Positions 5,982-64,000 of a stretch of DNA of 64,000 nt are shown here, one piece after another. The notes below the pieces were generated by a model, which saw only the letters and a program-made list of their open reading frames with translations, had not been told where the DNA came from and did not search any database. Numbering within the stretch: the first letter of the stretch is position 1; each line of letters starts with the position of its first letter. The DNA is taken from the NCBI GenBank assembly GCA_017410325.1, contig JAFQRA010000010.1, forward strand, positions 1 to 64,000. The letters are read 5' to 3'. A program made the position numbers and the translations under genes. The DNA comes from Clostridia bacterium. GTDB taxonomy: Bacteria; Bacillota; Clostridia; Oscillospirales; Acutalibacteraceae.

Positions 5982-6121
5982 AACTTTGTCTTGGTCACAT
6001 GGTGTGCAGGCGGACTGTGGCGCACAGTACTTTCTGCTTAATGCTGCTCGGTTCCCCGCCTGACATGGTTCGCAGTGCACCGTCGCACAGAACCCACACA
6101 CCACATGACCAAAACAAAGTT
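5982..6121 (-). ncRNA. ffs: Signal recognition particle RNA (short, 4.5S-like form)
   Basis: The minus strand can form one long hairpin: AACTTTGTTTTGGTCATGTGG at the 5' side pairs with the 3' side ending CCACATGGTCAAGACAAAGTT in mirror order (read on the genes' strand as CATGTGACCAAGACAAAGTT). The apical part carries the conserved SRP core, with GAACCATGTCAGG, GGGGAACCGAGCAGCA and TTAAGCAG, which is the Ffh binding domain and GNRA-type tip. The closing helix runs straight into TTTTTTT, so the RNA makes its own terminator. At about 140 nt it appears to lack the Alu domain found in many Clostridia. The position directly before dnaX is the classic one. Confidence 0.88.
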
Positions 6122-6747: not shown

Positions 6748-7578
6748 TCACTTACCTGCAAGTGCCTGGCATTTGTTATAGACCTTTTCAAGCTGCACGG
6801 CAGAGTCGTTCAGCATTTCCTCAAGCTCAAGAATCGTATAGCTTTCGGTGAGAATTTTATACAGGATATCCAACGAGTCTTCCAACAGTTCACACATTGA
6901 CTGCATATTTTCGTACTGCATATGCATATCGTACACCTGGACAACGGAGATATATGCTGATTCAACGAAGCCGTAGAAATAATCAATGTGCACCTCGTCT
7001 TCCGTTTCGCAGTAGTTGACAAGGCTCTGAATTGCGTAGGCGTGGTTGTTAAGGCTCTGTTCAACGGAACGTGCGCACTGCCTTATCGCCTCAGGAGAAG
7101 CGGTGGCAATACCGTCGTCAATGCCGCTGTCATCATACTCGGGGAGCTTCGCCTCGGTCACGGGCTCTAATTCTGTTGTATCAAGGAACGACGGAGCCGT
7201 AGTCGTAACCTGCGTCGAAGAGGCGGCCTGTGTTATATTCTGCTGATTGTCGTAGGGTGTTGTGTACATAGACGTTATGGGCGGAGCCGTTGAGATAGCG
7301 GGAATTGACGCTAAAAAGCCATCCTTTTTCTTGGTTGTGGTCGGCTTAGCCGTAGTTGCGGTGCGAGTCGTGCTCTTCTTGGCTTCGGTGCTATTCTCGC
7401 TCGGCTTGGTGCTTTCAGTGCTTTGCTCCGTTACCCTTTCTTCTGTAGCCGCCACCGCTTGGGTTGATGAACTGAAATCGCTCTGCGTGGTTGTTTCGGC
7501 TTCGTTTTTCTGCTTTGTGCACGCGGCAAACGAAACAAGCAAAGCAACCGTGAGCAAAGTTGCCGCAAATTTTTTCAT
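6748..7578 (-). CDS. Secreted lipoprotein with low-complexity Thr/Ser/Glu linker (unknown)
   Basis: 276 aa. It begins with a lipoprotein signal MKKFAATLLTVALL ending in the lipobox SFAAC. A long region of about residues 25-110 follows, dominated by Thr, Ser, Glu and Ala (TTTKKKDG, STAPPITS, TQVTTTAPS), a wall- or surface-spanning linker. The C-terminal 110 residues are mostly helical (CARSVEQSLNNHAYAIQSL, VVQVYDMHMQYENMQSM) and look like a four-helix bundle. The start is the ATG at 7576-7578 with AAGGAG nine bases upstream; an in-frame ATG 11 codons earlier has no ribosome binding site. The stop codon lies within a TAGGGGCAATTCACTT repeat fragment. The function is unknown. Confidence 0.8.
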   Translation of the reverse strand: MKKFAATLLTVALLVSFAACTKQKNEAETTTQSDFSSSTQAVAATEERVTEQSTESTKPSENSTEAKKSTTRTATTAKPTTTKKKDGFLASIPAISTAPPITSMYTTPYDNQQNITQAASSTQVTTTAPSFLDTTELEPVTEAKLPEYDDSGIDDGIATASPEAIRQCARSVEQSLNNHAYAIQSLVNYCETEDEVHIDYFYGFVESAYISVVQVYDMHMQYENMQSMCELLEDSLDILYKILTESYTILELEEMLNDSAVQLEKVYNKCQALAGK

Positions 7579-7645
7579 CGTTATTCTCCTTGTACTGTCG
7601 GTAACAATCACAGAACCGTCCCGTGATCGGTTTCTTATTTATTCT

Positions 7646-7777
7646 TTAGTTTACCGTTTCTTCCGTTACTTCGGGCAGGTTGGACTTTGCCTCGATAACA
7701 TCCTCAAACGCAAGGGCAAGGCAGGAACCAATCATCAATGCACCGCCGAGTGCAGCCGCAATAATTAACATAATCAT
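7646..7777 (-). CDS. 43-aa small membrane protein (unknown)
   Basis: The frame from ATG (7775-7777) to TAA (7646-7648) encodes 43 residues: a hydrophobic N-terminal helix (MIMLIIAAALGGALMIGSCLALAF) and an acidic tail (EDVIEAKSNLPEVTEETVN). GGAAGGAG sits just before it. The second ATG (7769-7771) has the better spacing of nine bases and would give 41 aa. A consensus promoter and tandem operator-like repeats stand upstream, which argues for a real, regulated gene. The lipoprotein gene 67 bases downstream may be in the same transcript. I do not recognise a family. Confidence 0.55.
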   Translation of the reverse strand: MIMLIIAAALGGALMIGSCLALAFEDVIEAKSNLPEVTEETVN

Positions 7778-7828
7778 TTACTCCTTCCTTTTTTAACGGG
7801 TTTTGGGTTGTTTTTACTTTGTGATGTG

Positions 7829-7857
7829 ATTATAGCAAGCAAAATTCTGAAAGGCAA
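7829..7857 (-). promoter_or_regulatory. Sigma-A promoter for the 43-aa protein and lipoprotein
   Basis: Minus strand TTGCCT (7852-7857), 17-base spacer, TATAAT (7829-7834). Transcription would start near 7822, leaving a leader of about 45 nt before the first small gene. Confidence 0.75.
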
Positions 7858-7862
7858 GAAAA

Positions 7863-7919
7863 GTTACAACATTGTAACTATTTGTAACCATTTGTAACCA
7901 TTTTGACATAATTTGACAT
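7863..7919 (-). promoter_or_regulatory. Tandem GTTACAAAT repeats just upstream of a -35 box, probable operator
   Basis: Read on the minus strand, two 11-base-spaced ATGTCAAA(A/T) copies are followed by three 10-base repeats GGTTACAAAT, GGTTACAAAT, AGTTACAAT and then an inverted TTGTAAC. The array ends six bases before the -35 box. Helically phased direct repeats in this place are typical of binding sites for activators such as response regulators. Which regulator binds is unknown. Confidence 0.55.
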
Positions 7920-7944
7920 TTCTGCGTATCGGGGTATAAAAAAT

Positions 7945-8011
7945 GTCATTCTGAACGTTAGTGAAGAATCTTTAAGCGGATATAAAGATCCTTCGCTTCG
8001 CTCAGGATGAC
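7945..8011. repeat. Second copy of the GTCATTCTGA...TCAGGATGAC inverted repeat
   Basis: Same ends and inner GAAGAATCTT/AAGATCCTTCGC halves as the unit at 6304-6370, with a different loop. The palindrome extends outwards by AAAAT/ATTTT. Apart from the promoter, operator and terminator annotated here, the 7778-8104 interval holds nothing else I can identify. Confidence 0.75.
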
Positions 8012-8035
8012 ATTTTCTTTTTGTTTGCGGTTGAT

Positions 8036-8066
8036 AAAAAAGCGCCCCGGCTTTTCAGCCGAGGCG
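8036..8066 (-). terminator. Terminator of the ribosomal superoperon
   Basis: Minus strand AACGCCTCGGC, short loop, GCCGGGGCGCT followed by TTTTTAT. It lies about 40 bases after the rplQ stop and closes a transcript that began some 15.8 kb upstream. Confidence 0.85.
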
Positions 8067-8104
8067 TTAAAATGATATCTGTTAGATTTTAAAAGCCGTA
8101 AGAC

Positions 8105-8497
8105 TTACTTGGAAGCCTTCTTAGCCTTCTTTGTCTCCTCAACAGCTGCCTTGTCATCAACGAGCTCGATGATGCACATTTCCGCTGCGTCACCGCGACG
8201 GGGGCCTGTCTTGGTAATACGGCAATAGCCGCCGTTAACATCCTTATATTTGGGGGCGATTTCGTCGAAGAGCTTTTTGACGACCTCTTCCTTTGTGACG
8301 AAAGCAAGAGCCTGACGCTTAGCGTTGAGGCTGTTGTCCTTTGCGACAGTGATCATTTTCTCTGTCAGCGCACGGACTTCCTTTGCCCTTGTAACGGTGG
8401 TTTCAATTTTGCCATTCTCTAAAAGATATGTCACCATTGCACGAAGCATTGCCATACGGTGGTCGCTGGCTCTGCCGAGCTTTCTGGTTCCGGGCAT
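8105..8497 (-). CDS. rplQ: 50S ribosomal protein bL17
   Basis: 130 aa. bL17 sits near the exit tunnel. The conserved N-terminus is clear ([34 protein letters not shown]), followed by [18 protein letters not shown] and [24 protein letters not shown] lysine/alanine-rich C-terminal tail (residues about 113-130) extends the protein beyond the 112-116 residues usual in Clostridia. It is the last gene of the superoperon, 40 bases after rpoA. Confidence 0.97.
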
Positions 8498-8537
8498 TTA
8501 AAACACTCCTTTACAGATAAATGTGTTGGGTTGAAGC

Positions 8538-9488
8538 TTATTCTTCTTCCTTGCGAAGGTCGAAGCCGAGGCTTCTGAGCTTTGCAACAACTTCGTCAAG
8601 AGACTTCTTGCCGAGGTTGCGGACCTTCATCATGTCCTCTTCTGACTTATTGATAAGATCTTCAACCTTGTTGATTCCGGCTCTCTTCAAGCAGTTGAAG
8701 GAGCGCACAGACAGGTCAAGTTCCTCAATGGTCATCTCCAGAACTTTTTCTGTGTTGTTGTCGTCTTTGACAACCATTACCTCTGTGTCGAAAGCCTCAT
8801 CCGACAGATCTCCGAAGAGACTGAGATGCTCGTTGAGGATCTTGGCGCCAAGAGAAACGGCTTCCTTTGCGTTAATGGTGCCGTCTGTCCACACCTCAAG
8901 CGTGAGCTTGTCGTAGTCCGTAATCTGGCCTACACGTGTGTTCTCGACTGTGTAATTAACCTTTAAAACAGGTGTGTAAATAGAGTCAATTGCGATAACG
9001 CCGATGATGGGCTGCATAAGAGCCTTGTTGCGCTCTGCAGAAACGTAGCCGCGACCCTTGTCGCAGGTAAGCTCCATGCTAAGGTGAGCGTCAGCATCAA
9101 GTGTAGCGATGGGCAGCTCGGGGTTGATGATTTCAACCTCGCTGTCTGTGCTGATGTCGCCGGCTGTGACAACGCCTGCGCCTGAAGCGTCGATGTACAT
9201 TGTCTTGGGGCCGTCGCCGTGAATCTTGAGGATTACGCTCTTGAGGTTGAGGACGATCTCTGTTACATCTTCCTTAACACCCTTGATTGTTGAAAACTCG
9301 TGGTGAACGCCTTCAATCTTGACAGATGTGATTGCGTAACCCGGAAGCGAGGAAAGCAGAACTCTTCTAAGGCTGTTGCCGAGAGTTGTGCCGTAGCCAC
9401 GCTCCAGCGGTTCAAGTACGAATCTTCCGTAATCACCGCTTGCGCTGAATTCGGCAGTTTCGATTTTGGGCTTCTCAATTCCGATCAT
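8538..9488 (-). CDS. rpoA: RNA polymerase alpha subunit
   Basis: 316 aa. The N-terminal dimerisation domain (residues about 1-230) includes [27 protein letters not shown], the segment that contacts beta and beta-prime. After an acidic linker with [11 protein letters not shown], the C-terminal domain shows [22 protein letters not shown] and [16 protein letters not shown], the helix-hairpin-helix surface that reads UP elements and activators. It lies between rpsD and rplQ as usual. Confidence 0.99.
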
Positions 9489-9535
9489 TCAAAACCCTCC
9501 TTGTTAAATTGAGTAATATACGCAAAAATTCAATA

Positions 9536-10138
9536 TTACTTCGAGTAAAGCTCGACGATAAGATGCTCCTCAACGGGAGTATCAATCTGCTCACGAGTGG
9601 GGATGCTCAGGACTGTGCCCTTGAGTGTATCCTTCTCACGCTCCATCCATGCGGGTGTGGTGAAGATGGGAGCATCCGAACCTGTAAGGCGAGTGAAAGC
9701 TGCGGAAGAGCGGCTCTTCTCTGCTACCTCAATAACGTCGCCTGCCTTAACCTGATAGGAAGGAATGTTAACCTTTTTGCCGTTAACAGTAAAGTGAGAG
9801 TGGCTGACGAGCTGACGAGCCTGACGGCGAGTAAGAGCAAGACCAAGTCTGAATACTACGTTGTCAAGGCGGCGCTCGCAAGTAATAAGCAGGTTGTCAC
9901 CGGCCTTACCGGGCATTGCAACAGCCTTCTCGTAGTATGTGTGGAACTGCTTCTCAAGAATGCCGTAGATGAACTTAACCTTCTGCTTCTCGTTAAGCTG
10001 CATACCGTACTCACTCTTTTTTCTTCTCCTCTGACCGCCGGGATTACGGAAAGTTTCCTTGTTCGCATAACCCATAACTGCGGGAGAAATGCCCAAAGCT
10101 TTGCAACGCTTAGCGATGGGTTGCATATTCTTTGCCAT
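9536..10138 (-). CDS. rpsD: 30S ribosomal protein uS4
   Basis: 200 aa. uS4 nucleates 16S rRNA 5' domain assembly. The S4 RNA-binding fold is visible at [43 protein letters not shown]. The N-terminal region lacks the four-cysteine zinc site, so this is the zinc-independent form. uS4 is the autoregulator of the alpha operon in several bacteria; no obvious S4-binding pseudoknot was identified upstream here. Confidence 0.98.
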
Positions 10139-23598: not shown

Positions 23599-23875
23599 TG
23601 TTACGCCTCCTAAAAATTTGGCGGGCTGCGCTTTTAGCACACTGCCCCGGGTGTTTCTAACCGAGCCATTCAAAATCCGAAAAGTATCTGAACTACTTTC
23701 CGGTGGCCATAAGCGCAATTTCACCCCTTGTTCGTCCGTGAGAAGACGCATCGAGGATGAGAACTATTACTAGTCGCCCGGTTCGATGATCGGACATGCT
23801 CCACGGAAATTCCCTGCTTCGGTGAGCAGCCACCTTCCGTTTCTACGCATATCTGCACACTATCTAATAGCATGC
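23599..23875 (-). promoter_or_regulatory. Long structured leader of the ribosomal superoperon
   Basis: Transcription is expected to start near 23875, leaving about 277 untranslated bases before rpsJ. The leader contains a CCGGAAAGTA/TACTTTTCGG hairpin (23677-23703) and further complementary segments (for example GTCCG near 23790 with CGGAC near 23730). The length and structure suggest autoregulation by an encoded ribosomal protein, as known for the E. coli S10 leader, but I do not recognise a known leader family. Confidence 0.55.
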
Positions 23876-54866: not shown

Positions 54867-57470
54867 ATGAAAGCAAAATTCATAAAAGTCGTTTCATTAT
54901 TACTTGTTTTCTCACTTATTGTAACCGTTACCGCAGTTGCAACGAGCGGCGATGTTGACCCCGAAATCATTGCCCAAACCCGTCAGACAGCGGTAGAGAT
55001 TGAAAGCGAAGGCATAGTCCTTCTCAAGAATGAGAACAATTTCCTGCCGCTTGAAAACAAAAAAGTAAACATATTCGGCGCAGGCTCCGTCTGCCCGTTT
55101 TTCGGCGGTGCGGGCTCGGGCGCAATCACGACCGATGACCCCGTTACTCTTTATGAGGCATTTGAAGCAGAGGGCATTGAGTATAACTCCGAGCTTCGTG
55201 CGCTTTACGAAAAGCACTGCCTTTCAAACGAGCTTCCCAAAACCGACAACACGGTTATCAACAACCTTCTCCAGGTGCTTCTTGCAAAGAACACACTTGA
55301 AGAAATGAACCCGAAGCACCTGACGGATGAGCTTCTCAAAAACGCAGTTGCTTTTTCCGACACGGCAATTATCGTAATCAGCCGCACAAGTGCCGAGGGC
55401 ACAGACCACACGGTTGAAACGCTCAGCCTTTCCGCAGACGAAACCGCAATGGTTGAAAAGGTAACGGCAGCATTTGAGAATGTCGTTGTGCTTTTCAATA
55501 TCGGCAACGTTATGGAAATGGGCTGGATTGACGAGTACGAAAGCATTAAGGCTGCGGCTATTATCTGGATTCCGGGCGAATTCGGTATGACTGCCGTACC
55601 GCAGATGTTAAACGGCAAGGTCAACCCTTCGGGCAGACTTACAGACACAATCGCATACAAAATTGACGACCATCCTTCAAGCGTCTGCTTCGGCAGCAAC
55701 AGCTACAACGGCGGCAAGAATTTCGTAGAATACTACGAGGGCATTTACATAGGCTACCGTTATTTTGAAACCTTTGCAAAGGACAAGGTGCAGTACCCCT
55801 TCGGCTACGGTCTTTCATACACAAGCTTTGAAAAAGAAGTTATTTCAACAGAATTCAACGCTGAAACCATAACCGTAGAGGTTAACGTCACAAACACGGG
55901 CGATAAGGCAGGCAAGGAAGTTGTTCAGCTTTATTACAGCACACCCTATACCGAGGGCGGCATTGAAAAGAGCGCAATCTGCCTTGGCGGTTTTGCCAAA
56001 ACAGAGCTTCTCGCCCCCGGTAACAGCCAAACGCTTACAATCACTTTCAAGACAGACGATATGGCTTCTTATGATTACAAGGTCAACGAAGCCTGGGTGC
56101 TTGAAGAAGGCACATACAAAATCATTGTCGCAAACGATGTAAGGAACCACATCGCTTCTTACGATTACGAAATAAACGAAACAAAGGTAATCAAGAACGA
56201 CCCCGTAACGGGCACAGAAATTGAAAACCTGTTTGACGATGTTTACAGCGGATATGAAATTATGTCAAGGGCAGATGTTGCCGCCACATATCCCGAGCTT
56301 CGTGAACTGAACAAAGACGATTATGTTATTGACGTTGACAAGGTTCCCGAACCCACTACCGAAGGCGAAGCCCCGAAAATGGGCGTAAAATACGACAAGA
56401 CCATCACCCTGCAGGATGTTGCAAAGGATGAAAGCCTTTGGGATGCCTTCCTCGACCAGCTCACCCTCGACGAAATGACAATGCTTGTAATCAACGGCGG
56501 TTACGAAACACACGGCGTCGAAAGGCTCGGCATACCTCACACAATGGATAATGACGGCCCATCAAGCGTAAAGGGCAGAAACGGCCTTGTCTACACCGAC
56601 AGTGGTACGGCTTACCCCTGCGCTACGGCTATAGCCTGCACGTGGAACACAGACCTTGCCTACGAAATGGGTAAGGGCGCAGGCAAGGAAGCAGCAGATA
56701 TGGGCACGGACACCTGGTATGCACCGGGTGCTAACATCCACCGCAACCCCAGAGGCGGCAGAAACTTTGAATACTTCTCCGAAGACCCGACAATTTCGGG
56801 CATTATGGCGGCAGAAATCATCAAGGGCGCCAACTCCGAAAGCCTTGTAACAACAATCAAGCACTACGCACTCAACGACCAGGAATCCCACAGAAACGGC
56901 GTTTTCACCTGGTGTGATGAGCAGGCAATGCGTGAAATCTACCTCAAGGCATTTGAAATTCCCGTAAAGGAAGCACAGCCCAAGGGCATAATGTCGGCAT
57001 ACAACCGTATCGGCACAAAGTGGTGCGGCTCAAGTTCAGCACTTCTCAACGACCTTCTGCGTGATGAGTGGGGCTTTGAAGGCTTTGTTGTTTCAGACTA
57101 CTCCTCCAACTTTACGGGCAGCGGCTATATGAGCCCCGTGCTCGCTGTTTACAACGGCAACGATACCATCCTTTCAGGTATGTGGGCACTGCAGGCACTT
57201 CAGCATAAAGCGGCTGTCAAGCTCGCCTACGCAAAAGACCCCATCGGCTTCGGCAATGCGCTTCGTGAAGCCTGCAAAAACCTCTGCATAATGAAAATGG
57301 AAACCAAGGCATTCAAAAACCCCGAAATCACCTACGATTCGTCACTCATCGGCACACTTGACACCCTTGACGACTGGACCTTTGAATTCCCCTATGTCTT
57401 CACTTTCTTAAGATTTATTTTAAACAACATCACCAATGTCGTAATCTACGCATTCAGATTTATTCTTTAA
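54867..57470 (+). CDS. GH3 beta-glucosidase with permuted domain order, secreted and membrane-associated
   Basis: 867 aa. After a signal peptide (MKAKFIKVVSLLLVFSLIVTVTAVA) comes what is normally the second GH3 domain (EGIVLLKNENNFLPLE, PVTLYEAFEAEGI, YPFGYGLSYTSFE), then an Fn3-like unit (VEVNVTNTGDKAGKEVVQLY), and only then the (beta/alpha)8 domain (ERLGIPHTMDNDGPSSV, YAPGANIHRNPRGGRNFEYFSEDP, TIKHYALNDQE). The nucleophile is Asp744 in GFVVSDYSSN. This reversed order is known from rumen bacterial beta-glucosidases. The last 25 residues are hydrophobic and end in IYAFRFIL, probably a membrane anchor. The ATG 54867-54869 is chosen over one six codons upstream because of AGAGGTG spacing. Confidence 0.92.
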   Translation: MKAKFIKVVSLLLVFSLIVTVTAVATSGDVDPEIIAQTRQTAVEIESEGIVLLKNENNFLPLENKKVNIFGAGSVCPFFGGAGSGAITTDDPVTLYEAFEAEGIEYNSELRALYEKHCLSNELPKTDNTVINNLLQVLLAKNTLEEMNPKHLTDELLKNAVAFSDTAIIVISRTSAEGTDHTVETLSLSADETAMVEKVTAAFENVVVLFNIGNVMEMGWIDEYESIKAAAIIWIPGEFGMTAVPQMLNGKVNPSGRLTDTIAYKIDDHPSSVCFGSNSYNGGKNFVEYYEGIYIGYRYFETFAKDKVQYPFGYGLSYTSFEKEVISTEFNAETITVEVNVTNTGDKAGKEVVQLYYSTPYTEGGIEKSAICLGGFAKTELLAPGNSQTLTITFKTDDMASYDYKVNEAWVLEEGTYKIIVANDVRNHIASYDYEINETKVIKNDPVTGTEIENLFDDVYSGYEIMSRADVAATYPELRELNKDDYVIDVDKVPEPTTEGEAPKMGVKYDKTITLQDVAKDESLWDAFLDQLTLDEMTMLVINGGYETHGVERLGIPHTMDNDGPSSVKGRNGLVYTDSGTAYPCATAIACTWNTDLAYEMGKGAGKEAADMGTDTWYAPGANIHRNPRGGRNFEYFSEDPTISGIMAAEIIKGANSESLVTTIKHYALNDQESHRNGVFTWCDEQAMREIYLKAFEIPVKEAQPKGIMSAYNRIGTKWCGSSSALLNDLLRDEWGFEGFVVSDYSSNFTGSGYMSPVLAVYNGNDTILSGMWALQALQHKAAVKLAYAKDPIGFGNALREACKNLCIMKMETKAFKNPEITYDSSLIGTLDTLDDWTFEFPYVFTFLRFILNNITNVVIYAFRFIL

Positions 57471-57494
57471 AATAAACATAAGGAGTTGATATTT

Positions 57495-58376
57495 ATGACA
57501 GAGTTTTTCCAAAGAATTATTGCGATTCTCCTTTCTTCCGTCAGCGTAATTTCAACATTTATCGGCGGTTTATCGTTTGAAAATTATGAGCTTTTCAAAG
57601 ACATCCGCTACGGCGAAGCGGAAAGAAACATTATGGATATCTATGTGCCAGACTCGGCTTATGAAAACGAGCACAACGGTGTAATACTCTATATCCACGG
57701 CGGCTCTTGGACAGGCGGCAACAAGGAAGATATGGCATCAAAGGCCAAGCGCTTTGCCCGGAAGGGATACATAACCGCAAGCATGAATTACACCCTTTAT
57801 GCTGACGGACTTTTCGGCAAGGTAACCGCACTTACAATGTGTGACGAAATAGGCAAAGCAATTGAAAAAATCAAAGCCTTTTCCGACGAAAAAGAGCTTA
57901 ACATCACAAAGCTTGCCGTTTCGGGCTATTCAGCCGGTGCACACCTTTCAATGCTCTACGGTTTTTCAAGGGCAAATGAGTCTGCAATCGAGCTTGTATT
58001 TACCGCAAATCAGGTAGGCCCGTCCGATTTTCATTCGGAAGTCTGGGGCAGCACAGGCCTTGCAAGTATGCTTTCGGGCATTGAAATCACAGCGGAAATG
58101 ACTGACACACAAAAAGAAGAGGTAATCAGCCTCGTTTCCCCCACCGCCTATGTTACAAAAGATACCGTACCCTCAATTCTCGCCTACGGCGGCACGGATA
58201 TGATAGTCCCATCGGGCAACGCCGAAAGAATCAAAACGGCATTTGAAACCGCAGGCGCAACCCACCGCTATATCCTCTATCCCCTCTCCAACCACGGCCT
58301 CGGCCTCGACCCGCTGTGCGAAATGGAATATATCAACACAGTCGAAGAGTACTGTAAGGAATATTTCGGGTATTGA
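57495..58376 (+). CDS. Alpha/beta hydrolase, esterase/acetylhydrolase type
   Basis: 293 aa. N-terminal hydrophobic segment (FFQRIIAILLSSVSVISTFIGGLSF) can act as an export signal or anchor. The hormone-sensitive-lipase/BD-FAE-like signatures are LYIHGGSWTGG (oxyanion hole), SGYSAGAHLSM (nucleophile Ser), YGGTDMIVPSGNA (Asp) and SNHGLGLD (His). It lies 24 bases after the GH3 gene and probably removes acyl groups from the same glycosides. The ATG at 57495-57497 is nine bases after AGGAG. Confidence 0.88.
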   Translation: MTEFFQRIIAILLSSVSVISTFIGGLSFENYELFKDIRYGEAERNIMDIYVPDSAYENEHNGVILYIHGGSWTGGNKEDMASKAKRFARKGYITASMNYTLYADGLFGKVTALTMCDEIGKAIEKIKAFSDEKELNITKLAVSGYSAGAHLSMLYGFSRANESAIELVFTANQVGPSDFHSEVWGSTGLASMLSGIEITAEMTDTQKEEVISLVSPTAYVTKDTVPSILAYGGTDMIVPSGNAERIKTAFETAGATHRYILYPLSNHGLGLDPLCEMEYINTVEEYCKEYFGY

Positions 58377-58399
58377 TCATTTAAAGCAAGCTGTATAAC

Positions 58400-58430
58400 A
58401 AAGACCGCATCATTTCCCGATGCGGTCTTT
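58400..58430. terminator. Bidirectional terminator between esterase and RtcB operon
   Basis: AAAGACCGCATC and GATGCGGTCTTT make a 12-bp stem between two convergent operons. T-tracts are weak on both sides (GGCTTTATT; GTTATAC). Confidence 0.7.
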
Positions 58431-58444
58431 GGCTTTATTAAATA

Positions 58445-59626
58445 TTATTTACCTGCTTTGAAATTATAGACGGGCTTTATTATTTTATTTATTTCAACCG
58501 TCGGCTCAATCAGCTTAACAATTTCGTCCATAGGCTTATATGCCATGGGAGATTCGTCAATCGTTGAAATATCGGCAGAGGTCGTATAAATGCCTTGCAT
58601 TGCCTCTTTATATTCGTCCACCGTAAACAGCTCCTTTGCCTCGCCTCTGCTGACCAGTCTGCCTGCGCCGTGGGGAGCGGAAAAATTCCAGTCGGGGTTG
58701 CCCTTACCGGTGGCTACGAGACAGCCGTCACGCATATTCATCGGGATAAGCACCTTCTGACCTTCGTGAGCAGGAATTGCACCCTTGCGCACTATACCCT
58801 CATCATCAATAAAATTGTGAAGAGTTTCAAAGGACTCAGCCTTTGCTATACCGAAATGCTTCATAATGTCATCGGCAATTTTTCTTCTGTTTCGGCTTGC
58901 AAAATCCTGACACATACGCATATCGTGCATATAGCCCTGAGCTTCCTCGCCCTCGAAATAGCAGTATTCGGGCGGAGTTTTTGTGCGCTTGGCAAACCTT
59001 GCCGTAATCTTGACCAGCTCATCGGGAATTTCTGCCATTCTGCCCTGCGCGGCAAGTCGGTCGTGCACCTCCTTTTTCGTTGCTTCTGCGGCGTTTTTGC
59101 AGGCAAGCGTTGCCTTTTGCTGGTAGAGCTTGGCAACCTGCAAGCCCAGATTCCGTGAGCCCGTATGAATTACAAGGTACTTATTATCCTCCTCGTCACG
59201 GTCAAGCTCAATAAAATGGTTGCCCCCGCCCAGTGTACCCAGCGAACAGTATATTCTGTCAAGGTCACGCAATTCGCCGTAGCAGTAAAGGTCTTTTATA
59301 AAATCCATATCGCCGTAGCTTTTGCGAAGATTGCTGCCTGCGGGTATACTGCGGTGAATAAATCCATCGAGCTCTTCAAGGTCTATATCAGCCCTACCAA
59401 GGCACACAGTAAGCATACCGCAGCCGATATCAACACCTATAACGTTGGGAATAACCCTGTTGCCTAACGTTGCGGTAAAGCCGACAACACAGCCGCTGCC
59501 GTAATGAACATCGGGCATTATGCGCACCTTTGAATCTGCAAACGGCGGCTGAGACAGAAGATTATAAATCTGGTTAACCGCAGTCGGCTCAACGTTTTCC
59601 GTAAATATTTTAAGGTCATAAGCCAT
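58445..59626 (-). CDS. rtcB: RtcB family RNA ligase
   Basis: 393 aa. RtcB joins RNA 2',3'-cyclic phosphate or 3'-phosphate ends to 5'-OH ends using GTP and Mn2+. The metal and catalytic residues are in place: Asp66 and Cys69 in GVDIGCGM, His137 in GTLGGGNHFIE, His154 in HTGSRNLG, His270 in ETLHNF and the guanylated His319 in SAPHGAGR. It is shorter than the E. coli or archaeal enzymes and belongs to the short bacterial branch. The ATG at 59624-59626 follows AAGGTGG. Archease is not encoded nearby. It is last in the five-gene operon with the ADP-ribosylglycohydrolase, WG, VWA and HTH-like proteins. Confidence 0.93.
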   Translation of the reverse strand: MAYDLKIFTENVEPTAVNQIYNLLSQPPFADSKVRIMPDVHYGSGCVVGFTATLGNRVIPNVIGVDIGCGMLTVCLGRADIDLEELDGFIHRSIPAGSNLRKSYGDMDFIKDLYCYGELRDLDRIYCSLGTLGGGNHFIELDRDEEDNKYLVIHTGSRNLGLQVAKLYQQKATLACKNAAEATKKEVHDRLAAQGRMAEIPDELVKITARFAKRTKTPPEYCYFEGEEAQGYMHDMRMCQDFASRNRRKIADDIMKHFGIAKAESFETLHNFIDDEGIVRKGAIPAHEGQKVLIPMNMRDGCLVATGKGNPDWNFSAPHGAGRLVSRGEAKELFTVDEYKEAMQGIYTTSADISTIDESPMAYKPMDEIVKLIEPTVEINKIIKPVYNFKAGK

Positions 59627-59664
59627 AATTATCACACCACCTTTTTTAAAACTTTGTTTCTTGC

Positions 59665-60459
59665 TTATCTGTTGTAAAGTTCTTGAGAATAGCCCCAGTA
59701 ATAGTCCTGAAGGGTTTCGTCAAGATAATCAAAAACCTCTTCCTGAATGTCCTCGGGTATTCCGTAAAAGGCCTCGGCAATTGCGCCTGCTATACAGCCC
59801 TGTGTGTCAGCATCGCCGCCGAGAGAAACCGCGTTCCGAACCGCATCCTCAAAATCCTCCGACTCAAGGAAGCAGACTATGGCCTGCGGCACACTGCCCT
59901 CGCAGGACACATCAAAGCTGTAGCCCGGTCTGATTTCATCAACGGTAAAGCCAAGGTTATAGTATTTGTCCTCTATGTACTCTCTTATCTCGTCTTTGTC
60001 CGAGCCGTTGCGTGCCATATATACTGCTGCCGCAACAGCCTGCGCGCCTCTGATGCCCTCGGGGTGGCTGTGAGTTACCTCTGCGCTCCATTTTGCCAGC
60101 AGCTCCGCCTGCTCAAGGCTGTCCGCCGCCCACGCAACGGGAGAAACCCTCATAGCCGAGCCGTTGGAATAGCTGCCGTAACCCCCTTGTGTATCACTCA
60201 TCAGCCAGCCGTAAAACATTCTGCCGTACCCTGCATCGGGATACTGTCTACCCAGCTCACGCATACGTTCAACAAGACAGGATTTGAACATTTCTTCGTC
60301 ATCAATGTCCGAGTCAACGCACGCACAGCCTACGGCAATTGTCATAATGCTGTCATCGGTTGCCCTGCAGGCACCGTCAAAAAGCCTGAAATCCTTGCTT
60401 TTGTCCGAATAAGTCTCATAGGGAGAGCCTACTATGTCACCTATAATTGCACCTAACAT
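59665..60459 (-). CDS. ADP-ribosylglycohydrolase family protein
   Basis: 264 aa, all-helical two-magnesium enzyme that removes ADP-ribose from proteins or other molecules (DraG/ARH type). Metal-binding blocks: MLGAIIGDIVGSPYE at the start, ATDDSIMTIAVG (Asp-Asp), and SLGGDADTQGCIAGAIAEAFYGIP near the C-terminus. The start is ATG 60457-60459 after GAAGGTG; the longer open frame overlaps the upstream gene. It may reverse an ADP-ribose mark on RNA ends or proteins in the same stress module as RtcB, which is inference. Confidence 0.9.
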   Translation of the reverse strand: MLGAIIGDIVGSPYETYSDKSKDFRLFDGACRATDDSIMTIAVGCACVDSDIDDEEMFKSCLVERMRELGRQYPDAGYGRMFYGWLMSDTQGGYGSYSNGSAMRVSPVAWAADSLEQAELLAKWSAEVTHSHPEGIRGAQAVAAAVYMARNGSDKDEIREYIEDKYYNLGFTVDEIRPGYSFDVSCEGSVPQAIVCFLESEDFEDAVRNAVSLGGDADTQGCIAGAIAEAFYGIPEDIQEEVFDYLDETLQDYYWGYSQELYNR

Positions 60460-60478
60460 TTCTTTCACCTTCCATATA

Positions 60479-61957
60479 TTATAATATAAATATTTCATTT
60501 TTTCTTCCCGTGGCGGCTATATAGCCGCTGTTATCGTTGAGCCATTCAATGCGGTCATACAGTAAATCAACTACCGTGTTGCCGTCAGCATCAATAAGCC
60601 CCATCCTTTGTACACCATCAATATATTCTTTAACCGTTAGCAACGGATTTTCCAAACCGCCTATTAACCCTCGCTTGTGCGATATCAGCTCATTTCCATC
60701 AAAATCGCAAAGGGACATTTCAAAGGTATTGCAGCCGATATAAACCACTCTTCTTTTTTCATAGTTTATACCGTGAACTTGCTTGCCCTCCTCCGAAATG
60801 AACAGAACCTTTCCTTCTCTGTCAACCAAGCCGTACCGCATCGGACGGACATCGCCTATACGTGCGATATACGGATAGCACCGGGTAAAAATAGAAGTAA
60901 ACTCCGAATCAAATATTTCGTTGCCGTCACGGTCAATAAGCGTTACTACGCTGCGTCTTTTTTTATTAGTGAGAACCTTGAAATATCCGTTTTCCTCAAA
61001 TGATATATGGCTGTATTTCGGTTCTATAATCACCTTTCTATTATTGATATCATACACACCGACATAATCGTACTCATTTTCATTATAAACACACACCATA
61101 TCTACAAAAATAGCCAGCCCGTCGTGCACTTCAACAATCTTTTTATACTTCGGTTCAATCAAAAGATTGCCGTCAGAATCAGCAACACCCCATACTTCTT
61201 TTTCACCGACCGTGCAACATACTGCAAAAAAGCGGCCGTCCAATGACACACGCCTGATGCACGAATACTTGAACTCAACAACTTCGTTTCCGTTTTTGTC
61301 GATTATACCCCAACGTACGTCTTCGGCGGTATAAATAAACTCCTCAGGGTCAAAAACCCATTCGCCCTTTGCGGCAATAGCTGTTCCATGCTGAAAATTC
61401 TCCGCAAAAACATACTGTGGCTTTACGGCTTCTTCACCCTGTGTGTCTATAAAGCCCCATATACCGGGATTGTTATAGCCGTGGTTTCTGCTGACGAAAT
61501 CTCTTTCAAGCACAGGCATCGCAGATACCATACAAAGTCCGTCGGTGTAGTCACCGATTTCACTGTATTTTCTGTCGGTAAGAAGCTGCGGGTCAAACAG
61601 AAATTCACCCGAGCGGTTTATGAACCCTTCCTTTCCGTCACGGTATACTTTTGCTATGCCGTTTTCGAACGGAGAAACATCCTCATAAACAGGCTCAATA
61701 ACAAATTCAAAATCCGTGTTTATGTAGCCGAAGCCTTTTTTTCTCAAGCCAACAAAGGCAAGACCCTCGTGAAAATCGCTTGCAAAGTCGAAAACGTCAG
61801 ATTTCTTACCGCTGTTCATATCCCAAAAATAAATCTTTTCGCCTGCCACAGGCTCAACGCTGTTGTTGTGCACCTTGAGATAACCTGTTTCTTTATCCTG
61901 AAACACCGCATCCGCTTCAAACTCCTCAATTCTCTTCGGCGAATAAGTTTTGCTCAT
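60479..61957 (-). CDS. WG-repeat protein
   Basis: 492 aa made of about nine repeats of the WG type, each with G-(F/L/I)-I-D-x-x-G and a following EPKY-like step: FGYINTDFEFVIEPVYEDV, EGFINRSGEFLFDPQL, WGFIDTQGEEAVKPQY, WGIIDKNGNEVVEFKY, WGVADSDGNLLIEPKY, VGVYDINNRKVIIEPKY, YGLVDREGKVLF, MGLIDADGNTVVDLLY. No signal peptide is present, so it is cytosolic. WG repeats form beta-propeller- or solenoid-like scaffolds of unknown task; here it may dock proteins or RNA in the operon's module. GGAGGGG precedes the ATG. Slightly more AT-rich than neighbours. Confidence 0.85.
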   Translation of the reverse strand: MSKTYSPKRIEEFEADAVFQDKETGYLKVHNNSVEPVAGEKIYFWDMNSGKKSDVFDFASDFHEGLAFVGLRKKGFGYINTDFEFVIEPVYEDVSPFENGIAKVYRDGKEGFINRSGEFLFDPQLLTDRKYSEIGDYTDGLCMVSAMPVLERDFVSRNHGYNNPGIWGFIDTQGEEAVKPQYVFAENFQHGTAIAAKGEWVFDPEEFIYTAEDVRWGIIDKNGNEVVEFKYSCIRRVSLDGRFFAVCCTVGEKEVWGVADSDGNLLIEPKYKKIVEVHDGLAIFVDMVCVYNENEYDYVGVYDINNRKVIIEPKYSHISFEENGYFKVLTNKKRRSVVTLIDRDGNEIFDSEFTSIFTRCYPYIARIGDVRPMRYGLVDREGKVLFISEEGKQVHGINYEKRRVVYIGCNTFEMSLCDFDGNELISHKRGLIGGLENPLLTVKEYIDGVQRMGLIDADGNTVVDLLYDRIEWLNDNSGYIAATGRKNEIFIL

Positions 61958-62008
61958 TTTTCTCCCCTCCTATCAACAATAAACACGTTCCTTTACGTTT
62001 TTTCGCAA

Positions 62009-62659
62009 TCAATCGTTCTTTCGCTCATTGAAATCATAGTCAAGCCTCATTCGCCACTCTTTCGGAATGCGCTTTTTCTTCCTGACGCTGCTTACAGCCA
62101 TTGAAACGGAATCGTAAAGAATTCTTGTGCCCTGCCCGTCAGACCTGTAATTGACCGCATTTTCGCTGTCAATGCCGTACATCGCCGCAGTTTCCACAGC
62201 ATCAATATTCGCACCGATAAAAATGAACTCCCAACCGTGCTCGACCTTTTGCTTTTCAATCATAGCCTTTACCTGAGCGCTGCCGTAATTTCTGCTTGCA
62301 TTTTCCTTACCGTCGGTTGTGATTACAAACACCGTCTTTTCGGGCACATCCTCCTCACGGATATATTTGTGAATGTTTTCAATGTGCTCAATAGCCGAGC
62401 CGAGAGCATCAATCAGCGCTGTACAGCCGCCGACAAAGTATTGCTTTTCGGTCATCGGTGCAACATTGGGCAAAGCCACTCTGTCGTGCAGAATTTCAAA
62501 GCTGCTGTCAAACAGAACAGTCGATACCCAGCAAATACCGTCCTGCTTTTTCTGTTTTTCAATCATGGCGTTGAAGCCGCCTATCGTATCGCCTTCAAGA
62601 CCTTCCATTGAGCCGCTTCTGTCGATAATAAACACAAGCTCAGTAATACCGTTTTTCAT
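62009..62659 (-). CDS. VWA-domain protein, cytosolic
   Basis: 216 aa, consisting almost entirely of one von Willebrand factor A domain. The MIDAS metal motif is DRSGSM (Asp13, Ser15, Ser17), with conserved FVITTDGKENAS later. A sequence typical of phage/plasmid-style cytosolic VWAs (EGDTIGGFNAMIEKQKKQDG) follows the MIDAS. The ATG at 62657-62659 follows GGAGG; the frame is open 36 codons further upstream without support. VWA proteins often act with a ligand or AAA ATPase; none is encoded here. Confidence 0.9.
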   Translation of the reverse strand: MKNGITELVFIIDRSGSMEGLEGDTIGGFNAMIEKQKKQDGICWVSTVLFDSSFEILHDRVALPNVAPMTEKQYFVGGCTALIDALGSAIEHIENIHKYIREEDVPEKTVFVITTDGKENASRNYGSAQVKAMIEKQKVEHGWEFIFIGANIDAVETAAMYGIDSENAVNYRSDGQGTRILYDSVSMAVSSVRKKKRIPKEWRMRLDYDFNERKND

Positions 62660-62763
62660 TTTTCTTTCCTCCGTAATATAAATATGATTCGGGCTTTCTT
62701 TCAACCCTGTAACCGCATTATATACGAAGGAATAATATAAAAGGTCTCCTCTCGGTAGACTTT

Positions 62764-63372
62764 TCAAACCGAGCCCAGCAGCTCGAGATCGAAGTGATAA
62801 AGCACTTCGTTAACCTCAAAAATATCGGTGTAATTCCCCGTTTTAAGGAAATATTCAATAACAAGATCAAATTTATCCGAGTGTGACAGACATAAGCCTG
62901 CCGTGCTGAGCAGATGGTTTGCCTCGTCAAGCTCAAGTCTCAAGCCTATTGCAAAGGCAAGCACTATGTATTTGCTCGGCTTATAATCGGGGTTGCACTT
63001 TATCTTCGAAAAAGTCTTTTTGTTGATGTTGGATTTTTTATAGCACTCAACATCGGTGTAGCCCCTTTTGTCAATGTAATAAAAAAGCGTTTCGGCGAAG
63101 CCCTTATCCATATTTGCTAAAATGTCATCCATTATACTTTCGGGAAACGGCATACACAGCTTTGCCGTTTTTTCGAGAAAACCACTGCTTACATATTTTG
63201 TTTTTGGCTTTTCCTGATTTTCACGCAGACATTCTCTGACAAATTCATCCCTGACTTTTTCGGGCTCGGGCAAAATCTCATCCGCATTATAATTTTTTTC
63301 AATATAAAGCGTTATACATTTAAGAATTTTGCTGTCCTGTTCAGACATAAATTCAATACCCCGATTTTTCAT
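62764..63372 (-). CDS. Putative HTH-like protein heading the RtcB/ADP-ribosylglycohydrolase operon
   Basis: 202 aa, helical. The region VECYKKSNINKKTFSKIKCNPDYKPSKYIVLAFAIGLRLELDEANHLLSTAGLCLSHSDKFDLVIEYFLKTGNY has the look of an XRE/lambda-repressor-type helix-turn-helix followed by a conserved C-terminal helical unit; I recall similar proteins next to macro-domain, VWA and ADP-ribose genes in Clostridia. The N-terminal 100 residues are helical and unassigned. An in-frame ATG at 63411 begins only two bases after the expected transcription start, so the ATG at 63370-63372 with AAAGG nine bases upstream is preferred; ATG 63348 is a further option. It is likely the operon's regulator or an RNA/ligand sensor. 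Confidence 0.7.
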   Translation of the reverse strand: MKNRGIEFMSEQDSKILKCITLYIEKNYNADEILPEPEKVRDEFVRECLRENQEKPKTKYVSSGFLEKTAKLCMPFPESIMDDILANMDKGFAETLFYYIDKRGYTDVECYKKSNINKKTFSKIKCNPDYKPSKYIVLAFAIGLRLELDEANHLLSTAGLCLSHSDKFDLVIEYFLKTGNYTDIFEVNEVLYHFDLELLGSV

Positions 63373-63419
63373 ATACTCAAACCTTTCTTTAAGCAATGGT
63401 ACATAACTCATCGACTGAA

Positions 63420-63447
63420 ATTATACCATAAATGCAATAAAATACAA
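63420..63447 (-). promoter_or_regulatory. Promoter of the RtcB operon
   Basis: Minus strand TTGTAT, 16-base spacer, TATAAT (63420-63425). The next 40 bases would be leader to the preferred start codon. The promoter is back-to-back with the NamZ-like gene promoter. Confidence 0.6.
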
Positions 63448-63487
63448 CTGCCGTAAAGCAAAGGTTTGAAACATCAGCTTTTTTCAA

Positions 63488-63516
63488 TTGCAAATGCGTC
63501 TGAATTGTTGTAGAAT
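63488..63516 (+). promoter_or_regulatory. Promoter of the NamZ-like gene
   Basis: TTGCAA (63488-63493), 17-base spacer, TAGAAT (63511-63516), start codon 34 bases downstream with AGGAGG in between. Confidence 0.75.
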
Positions 63517-63550
63517 AAGAATATATCAGCTTACAGGAGGAAGGTTAGAT

Positions 63551-64000
63551 ATGAAAACGGCAAAGCAGAAGTTATTTTGCGGTGCGGATGTGGTTTCACG
63601 TGACGGGTTTGATTTTGAAGGCCGCTGCGGTCTTATTACCAACCACACAGGTGTGCTGCGAGACCTTTCTTCAACCGTGGATATGCTCAGGGAAAAATGC
63701 GGCCTTGTGGCCCTTTTTGGCCCCGAACACGGCGTAAGGGGCGATATCCAGGCAGGCGAAGGCGTAACGTCTTATACCGACAAAAAAACGGGACTTCCCG
63801 TTTACAGCCTGTTCGATGAAGATACAACGGAAAGCGAAAAAGCGCTTGCAAGCCTTGACACGGTTGTTTTTGACATCCAGGACGTGGGCGCAAGGTTTTA
63901 CACCTATGCTTACACTATGACTGATGCTATGAAGCTTTGTGCAGAAAACGGCATAAAGTTCGTCGTGCTTGACAGGCCCAATCCCATAGGCGGAGTAAAG
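63551..64000 (+). CDS. DUF1343/NamZ-like exo-beta-N-acetylmuramidase (3' end outside window)
   Basis: 150 residues visible, open to the end of the window. The N-terminal family blocks are FEGRCGLITNHTGVLRD, LVALFGPEHGVRGDIQAGEGV, GLPVYSLFDED, VVFDIQDVGARFYTYAYTM and VVLDRPNPIGG. NamZ (GH171) releases N-acetylmuramic acid from peptidoglycan ends. No signal peptide is present, so it would act on recovered muropeptides in the cytosol. AGGAGG precedes the ATG. Confidence 0.9.
   Translation, partial: MKTAKQKLFCGADVVSRDGFDFEGRCGLITNHTGVLRDLSSTVDMLREKCGLVALFGPEHGVRGDIQAGEGVTSYTDKKTGLPVYSLFDEDTTESEKALASLDTVVFDIQDVGARFYTYAYTMTDAMKLCAENGIKFVVLDRPNPIGGVK

Follow-up and report, generated by a model that had tools for sequence, protein, structure and literature searches.

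A minus-strand RtcB, ADP-ribosylglycohydrolase, WG-repeat, VWA and HTH operon at a variable site in a gut Clostridia genome, and its possible relation to predicted ADP-ribose-reversal systems

The stretch of DNA analysed here, which we call the window, comprises positions 1 to 64,000 of contig JAFQRA010000010.1 from a gut bacterium of the Acutalibacteraceae (assembly GCA_017410325.1), and near its right-hand end lies the subject of this study, an operon of five open reading frames (ORFs) on the minus strand at 58445–63411, whose positions held when checked against the sequence and the ORF calls. In transcriptional order, and with start codons judged by eye throughout, these encode an HTH protein (62764–63411) with a Cro/C1-type helix-turn-helix and conserved C-terminal helices; a stand-alone VWA protein of 216 residues (62009–62659, ATG at 62659, the mechanical ORF beginning at a TTG at 62767); a WG-repeat protein of 492 residues (60479–61957, likely start 61957; PF14903, 4.6e-50); an ADP-ribosylglycohydrolase (ARH, also ARG; 59665–60459, ATG at 60459; PF03747, 2e-37); and an RtcB family RNA ligase (58445–59620, ATG at 59620; Pfam, 1.1e-57). 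For the HTH protein a start at 63411 is possible, with Met14 at 63372, preceded by AAAGAAAGG, appearing likelier. Measured from the likely starts, the gaps between successive genes are 104, 51, 19 and 44 nt, in agreement with the spacing of about 20 to 105 bases given for five minus-strand genes in a first-pass annotation of this DNA.

That annotation had also described the catalytic motifs of RtcB, ARH and the VWA protein as intact, and they are, its His319 of RtcB being residue 317 when counted from the likely ATG. RtcB carries D64/C67, N134-H135, H152, H268 and H317 as expected, with most of these stretches aligned to RtcB proteins of solved structure; these motifs comprise the metal ligands and the guanylate-accepting histidine, H317. 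ARH has TDD at 34–36 and GGDADTQ at 214. Its best match among solved structures is ARH3 (3.6e-16), with DraG at 7.7e-8, while in NCBIfam the DraG model is the best match but falls far below its cut-off (58 of 337 bits). The Pfam VWA match is weak (0.001, below the curated cut-off); the metal ion-dependent adhesion site DRSGSM is intact, and DxSGSM is present in 112 of the 117 VWA proteins scoring above 150 bits. A sequence search of solved structures with the VWA or the WG protein matched none.

The five genes are probably transcribed jointly. An extended -10-like element, TGGTATAAT, lies at 63420–63428 on the minus strand, about 10 nt 5' of the first HTH ATG; it was recognised by eye and is absent from the scan list. 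Between RtcB and the convergent gene, a 13-pair terminator-like hairpin occupies 58399–58431, listed by the scan for the plus strand. The idea of one promoter and one terminator has a candidate for each signal, with counts that are not clearly above those of shuffled sequence: 14 promoter-like elements against 11.2 (standard deviation 4.1), and 12 terminator-like ones against 8.6 (standard deviation 3.1). None of the five genes has a PADLOC match, and Rfam gives none in the operon, either at the gathering threshold over the whole window or at E≤1 over 57000–64000. Elsewhere in the window, an SRP RNA (6001–6099) and an S10-Clostridia leader (23774–23853) are present, both on the minus strand.

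Pfam assigns the HTH protein to no family. It corresponds to the Cro/C1-like C-terminal portion of macro-HTH proteins, which are widespread, with 60% identity to that portion of the one at locus L093, and the macro domain is absent from the window copy. Its predicted fold is a helical HTH of the Cro/C1 (XRE) type, in a comparison confined to listed fold families, and the stretch of its helix 3 is conserved. Of 295 genomes searched in the order, 88 have a VWA relative at E≤1e-20, this genome among them. All 96 listed places, less two part-matches in one genome (G234) and with two places in another (G308) counted as one, give 93 VWA loci. An HTH gene lies within 4 kb of VWA in 75 of these, always on the same strand, and a macro match within 4 kb in 65, found with a single query that divergent macro domains may escape; six of the 18 loci without HTH have less than 2 kb of contig upstream. 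Across the VWA-, HTH- and genus-based selections, in which neighbouring genes were called with a simple custom ORF chooser, 99 loci have both genes, HTH being upstream in 97. Plasmid records of Vescimonas and Selenomonas also contain the two genes, at a distance of about 4 kb in Vescimonas. In a phage record (L072, IMGVR 15682261) a macro-HTH gene and a VWA gene occupy 7422–9653, though a scan of viral contigs with VWA found no relative. Known pairs of this kind, annotated as "O-acetyl-ADP-ribose deacetylase" or "macro domain-containing protein" followed by "vWA domain-containing protein", share families and gene order with the window; they carry the macro domain, which the window copy lacks. 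The HTH and VWA genes are the conserved core of the window operon.

The HTH-like protein had been proposed as the switch of the system. Its predicted Cro/C1-like fold suits such a role; a shared upstream motif was not found, in that none stood out as a common operator in a weak test on 75 regions upstream of HTH genes. The commonest 8-mer, AAAGGAGG, resembles a ribosome-binding site and occurs in nine of the 75. Others reach eight, including ATTTTTTC, AGAATAAA and CGGTGAAA, compared with six to seven in five plain shuffles, and each of the listed inverted repeats with 6-nt arms is present in one region at most.

No gene of at least 75 residues separates HTH from VWA in 63 of the 99 loci, and one to three do so in the other 36. 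Among this cargo are genes for a Y-family polymerase, an exonuclease-like protein, RlaP, an HD phosphatase, ARH and RtcB; the RtcB and RlaP genes lie in the rows of L068 and L092 respectively. Several arrangements are worth recording. L121 and L134 both have, in the same order between macro-HTH and VWA, a gene for a Y-family DNA polymerase (by Pfam match in L134) and a short one. Three genomes of the same genus (L278, L280, L281) have a gene of about 248 residues in this position, the one scanned (L278) being an Rce1-like CAAX protease. L092:6652–9808 reads macro-less HTH, flavodoxin/4Fe-4S, RlaP (an RNA-repair polymerase-beta family) and VWA, with one opposite-strand ORF among them. At L099:6972–9227 a DUF2828-DUF7788 protein is immediately 5' of VWA, and the same family adjoins RtcB in L073 and L238.

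At E≤1e-10, 45 of the 295 genomes have RtcB, and in this set it lies near VWA only in the window and, as a C-terminal fragment, in G356 (a 96-residue ORF, L094). The HTH-based selection adds a full RtcB gene in G107 (L068), flanked by macro-HTH and VWA. In a quick tree the RtcB of the window and that of L068 do not group as sisters, and therefore RtcB apparently entered HTH-VWA rows more than once; a single origin of the two full VWA-linked RtcB genes is contradicted by the same tree. A scan of genome contigs covered the best 80 of 191 RtcB relatives, with up to 5 kb on each side (the full 5 kb on both sides in 37 and on one side in 34). ARH is near RtcB in three of these 80. In a sheep-colon Clostridia contig (L173) the two genes are 19 nt apart without VWA, and this contig holds the best matches seen to both window RtcB (78%) and window ARH (75%). 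L225 has a calcineurin-like gene, ARH and then RtcB, again without VWA. L238 has ARH, WYL-WCX, WYL, WCX, RtcB and DUF2828-DUF7788, and here ARH is separated from RtcB by about 4 kb. Passages of PMC9503650, PMC9458441, PMC4012209, PMC7824862 and PMC4275035 on RtcB or ADP-ribosylation describe no gene pair of ARH with RtcB.

ARH also recurs beside VWA, within 4 kb in seven of the 93 loci and always on the same strand; six of the matches are firm, scoring from about 232 bits upwards, and that of L167 reaches only 29 bits. Within the 295 genomes, six ARH places adjoin VWA in five genomes, two of the places being in this genome, where about 0.15 would be expected by a hand estimate from match coordinates. 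The corresponding Poisson probability is about 1e-8, or 6e-7 without the window. On the Selenomonas ruminantium plasmid pSRC2 (L071) ARH stands between macro-HTH and VWA. The ARH gene of that plasmid, at 8441–9373, is missing from the distributed gene table. A second system occurs on the same contig as the window operon, 62 kb away (L087, C7:117000-136500), with the genes WYL, macro-HTH, HD_4, ARH and VWA.

The WG protein behaves differently from the rest of the operon. At E≤1e-20 it has no match in any of the 295 genomes besides its own. At E≤1e-8, 45 of 391 genomes of the class have a match, its own counted, the best outside being 33% identical, and four neighbourhoods examined among the 44 other genomes contained no RtcB, ARH, VWA or HTH. 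At one VWA locus (L115) a WG gene lies nearby on the opposite strand. WG thus looks like a local addition without linkage elsewhere, and the role of conserved scaffold that the first-pass annotation had given it finds no support. The same annotation took all five genes as one unit, a view that depended on conserved linkage in other genomes; neighbourhood searches recovered none in any of the collections examined, and within that scope it is rejected. Its broader proposal, RNA repair combined with ADP-ribose reversal, fared better: ARH lies by RtcB in L173, L225 and (at about 4 kb) L238, it recurs beside VWA, and the published chemistry of ARH followed by RtcB is coherent.

Judged from alignments within the genus, the place of the operon, window positions 58374–63488, is a variable site. 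A sister species (G153) shares 6334 bases of the left flank at 98.5% identity, as far as the end of an esterase gene at 58374; from there to the contig end it has an AAA/DUF4143 gene and a fragment of a serine recombinase. Neither RtcB nor VWA was found in that genome. Both flanks are present in G150, with other genes between them, and the left flank alone was matched in G152 and G157. These four congeners hold other genes beside the esterase. One VWA gene is present in eight of the ten other genomes of the genus that were searched. Seven of these eight loci have the macro-HTH form, and in the eighth, L282, the macro match is cut by the contig end.

Among described systems, the closest are the ARG-centric host systems set out in section 3.8 of PMC9503650 (Viruses 2022, 14:1977). 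These are themselves a prediction, comprising an ARG hydrolase, an HTH regulator, a phosphatase, a vWA chaperone and sometimes Macro; that section names them from actinobacteria, planctomycetes and proteobacteria, and gives a WYL- or Nudix-HTH regulator in more than 42% and a coupled phosphatase in slightly more than 55%. They are proposed to act on proteins and predicted to counter viral ADP-ribosylation. The window operon shares with them the ARG/ARH hydrolase, an HTH protein, a vWA protein, macro-linked relatives and variable accessory genes. As in those systems, no coupled ADP-ribosyltransferase or sirtuin was found by Pfam among the five genes and two downstream, the gene at 63488–64672 lying outside that scan. 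L087, the paralogue, fits the ARG-centric make-up closely, including its WYL and HD phosphatase genes. RtcB and WG are additions in the window operon; the sole mention of RtcB in PMC9503650 is an entry among its references, and "WG repeat" does not appear. RtcB is the new element relative to the published ARG-centric kind.

Two other known arrangements share a ligase with the window. The Deinococcus radiodurans operon DRB0100-DRB0099-DRB0098 encodes a ligase, a poly(ADP-ribose) glycohydrolase (PARG) and an HD/polynucleotide kinase, and its authors deem the clearing of ADP-ribosylated phosphate ends conceivable (PMC11833690). There too a nucleic-acid ligase adjoins an ADP-ribose hydrolase; unlike in the window, the ligase is of another type (termed RNA/DNA ligase), the hydrolase is a macro-type PARG rather than an ARH, and HTH and VWA are missing. 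The RtcB ligase itself is shared with the RNA-repair operons of the RtcR-RtcBA, TROVE/Ro-like and Band-7 types. RtcB in such operons may be paired with TROVE/Ro-like or SPFH/Band-7 partners. Relatives of the window RtcB elsewhere adjoin Band_7, or WYL together with DUF2828/DUF7788. The window operon lacks DUF2828 and Band_7, its 216-residue VWA protein stands alone, and it differs from RtcR-RtcBA in that Pfam finds neither rtcA nor rtcR among its five genes and two downstream.

Published biochemistry allows a sequence of reactions to be proposed. Human ARH3 is reported to remove ADP-ribose from the phosphate ends of RNA, both 5' and 3' (PMC6582358), and the ARH3-like SCO5809 to clear both ends (PMC11833690), while E. 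coli RtcB is reported not to ligate 3'- or 5'-ADP-ribosylated RNA (PMC9458441). Because ARH3-type enzymes clear RNA phosphate ends and E. coli RtcB cannot join ends that are ADP-ribosylated, removal of the modification followed by ligation is plausible. Under attack by phage, toxin or stress, RNAs would be cleaved, ADP-ribosylated or both; the ARH3-like hydrolase would strip ADP-ribose off RNA phosphate ends, and perhaps off proteins too, leaving a free 3'-phosphate that RtcB, with GTP, would join to a 5'-OH end. The VWA protein could serve as a Mg-dependent peptide-binding adaptor that binds and presents substrates, and the Cro/C1-like HTH protein, macro-fused in most relatives, as its regulator or nucleic-acid-binding partner. 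ARH might substitute for the macro part lost in the window, and WG would be an optional extra. We infer every biochemical step in this organism, as well as the trigger and the joint action of HTH-VWA with ARH-RtcB.

Our tentative interpretation, which we consider nearly as apt to be right as wrong, is that the window operon represents a variant, specific to this species, of the predicted ARG/vWA systems for ADP-ribose reversal, in which an RNA ligase has been taken up. In its favour are the HTH-VWA and ARH-VWA linkages, the joint occurrence of macro-HTH, ARH and VWA on pSRC2, the make-up of L087, the proximity of ARH to RtcB in L173, L225 and L238, the RtcB and RlaP genes in other HTH-VWA rows, and the reported activities of ARH3-type enzymes and E. 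coli RtcB. A number of observations weigh against it. The full five-gene set was seen once, in this genome, across all collections searched, which excludes a conserved five-gene operon there. No RtcB was found in the ten other genomes of the genus, and no HTH, VWA, macro or WG gene within the up to 5 kb covered on each side of RtcB at the best 80 of 191 loci. Unlike the ARG-centric systems, the window has no WYL/Nudix regulator, its HTH protein being Cro/C1-like instead, and Pfam detects no phosphatase among its five genes. In a tree of 15 ARH sequences, from which L167 was left out as below the score cut, window ARH clusters with L173 and ARHs not near VWA, apart from the seven other VWA-linked ARHs. 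Since it groups in this way, the operon looks like a mosaic in which an HTH-VWA pair was joined to an ARH-RtcB pair, rather than a VWA-ARH system to which RtcB was added later. Guanosine and 2'-OH RNA adducts are reportedly not acted on by ARH-type enzymes (PMC11833690), and KptA/Tpt1, a possible source of RNA-end ADP-ribose, has no match in this genome. Finally, the cargo of HTH-VWA rows, of which part was scanned, also includes ArsC/Spx-like, cation efflux, GH43 with MFS, esterase and CAAX protease genes, and because it is so mixed, membership of the operon is weak evidence of a common pathway.

The mixed content of the 36 rows with intervening genes also favours a rival account, in which two unrelated modules sit under a common promoter in a variable site: HTH-VWA as a stress or regulatory pair driving any cargo, ARH-RtcB as a separate repair pair, and WG as a passenger. 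The other genes beside the esterase in four congeners, the separate positions of the window and L068 RtcB, and the unlinked WG all point the same way. Against this, ARH occurs beside VWA in excess of the rough chance estimate, and ADP-ribose chemistry is common to both halves, through macro-HTH in most relatives and ARH here; we regard the account as plausible without being probable. Much the same standing goes to a protein-directed ADP-ribose defence, in which ARH and VWA would clean ADP-ribosylated host proteins and, during the same attack, RtcB would work alongside them on cleaved RNA, though not at the same RNA end; it overlaps the variant-system interpretation, so that the two are not exclusive. 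The protein targets and vWA chaperone proposed in section 3.8 of PMC9503650 are in its favour, as are the absence of KptA noted above and the best score of window ARH with ARH3, reported to remove serine-linked ADP-ribose (PMC9458441), but ARH adjoins RtcB without VWA in L173 and L225, which argues for a more direct link to RNA. A toxin-antitoxin or abortive system with one of the five genes as toxin would suit the absence of the operon from this site in the sister species, the recombinase fragment nearby, and the HTH-VWA relatives on plasmids and in a phage record; with the five genes giving neither a transferase or nuclease family in Pfam nor a PADLOC match, we think it very improbable. On the sequence as it stands, the operon appears real, and the repair module it would form is coherent but unproven.

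The VWA partner, found in 88 of the order's 295 genomes, accompanies ADP-ribose enzymes. Three separate Clostridia contexts place ARH close to RtcB (the window together with L173, then L225 and L238), which opens the pairing to in vitro test. A more specific proposal, that ARH frees RNA 3'-phosphate ends for its operon partner RtcB, with the HTH/VWA or macro-HTH/VWA pair as sensor and substrate adaptor, seems to us doubtful at present. Were it true, there would be an ADP-ribose-directed branch of RNA repair built on RtcB, linking two repair chemistries.

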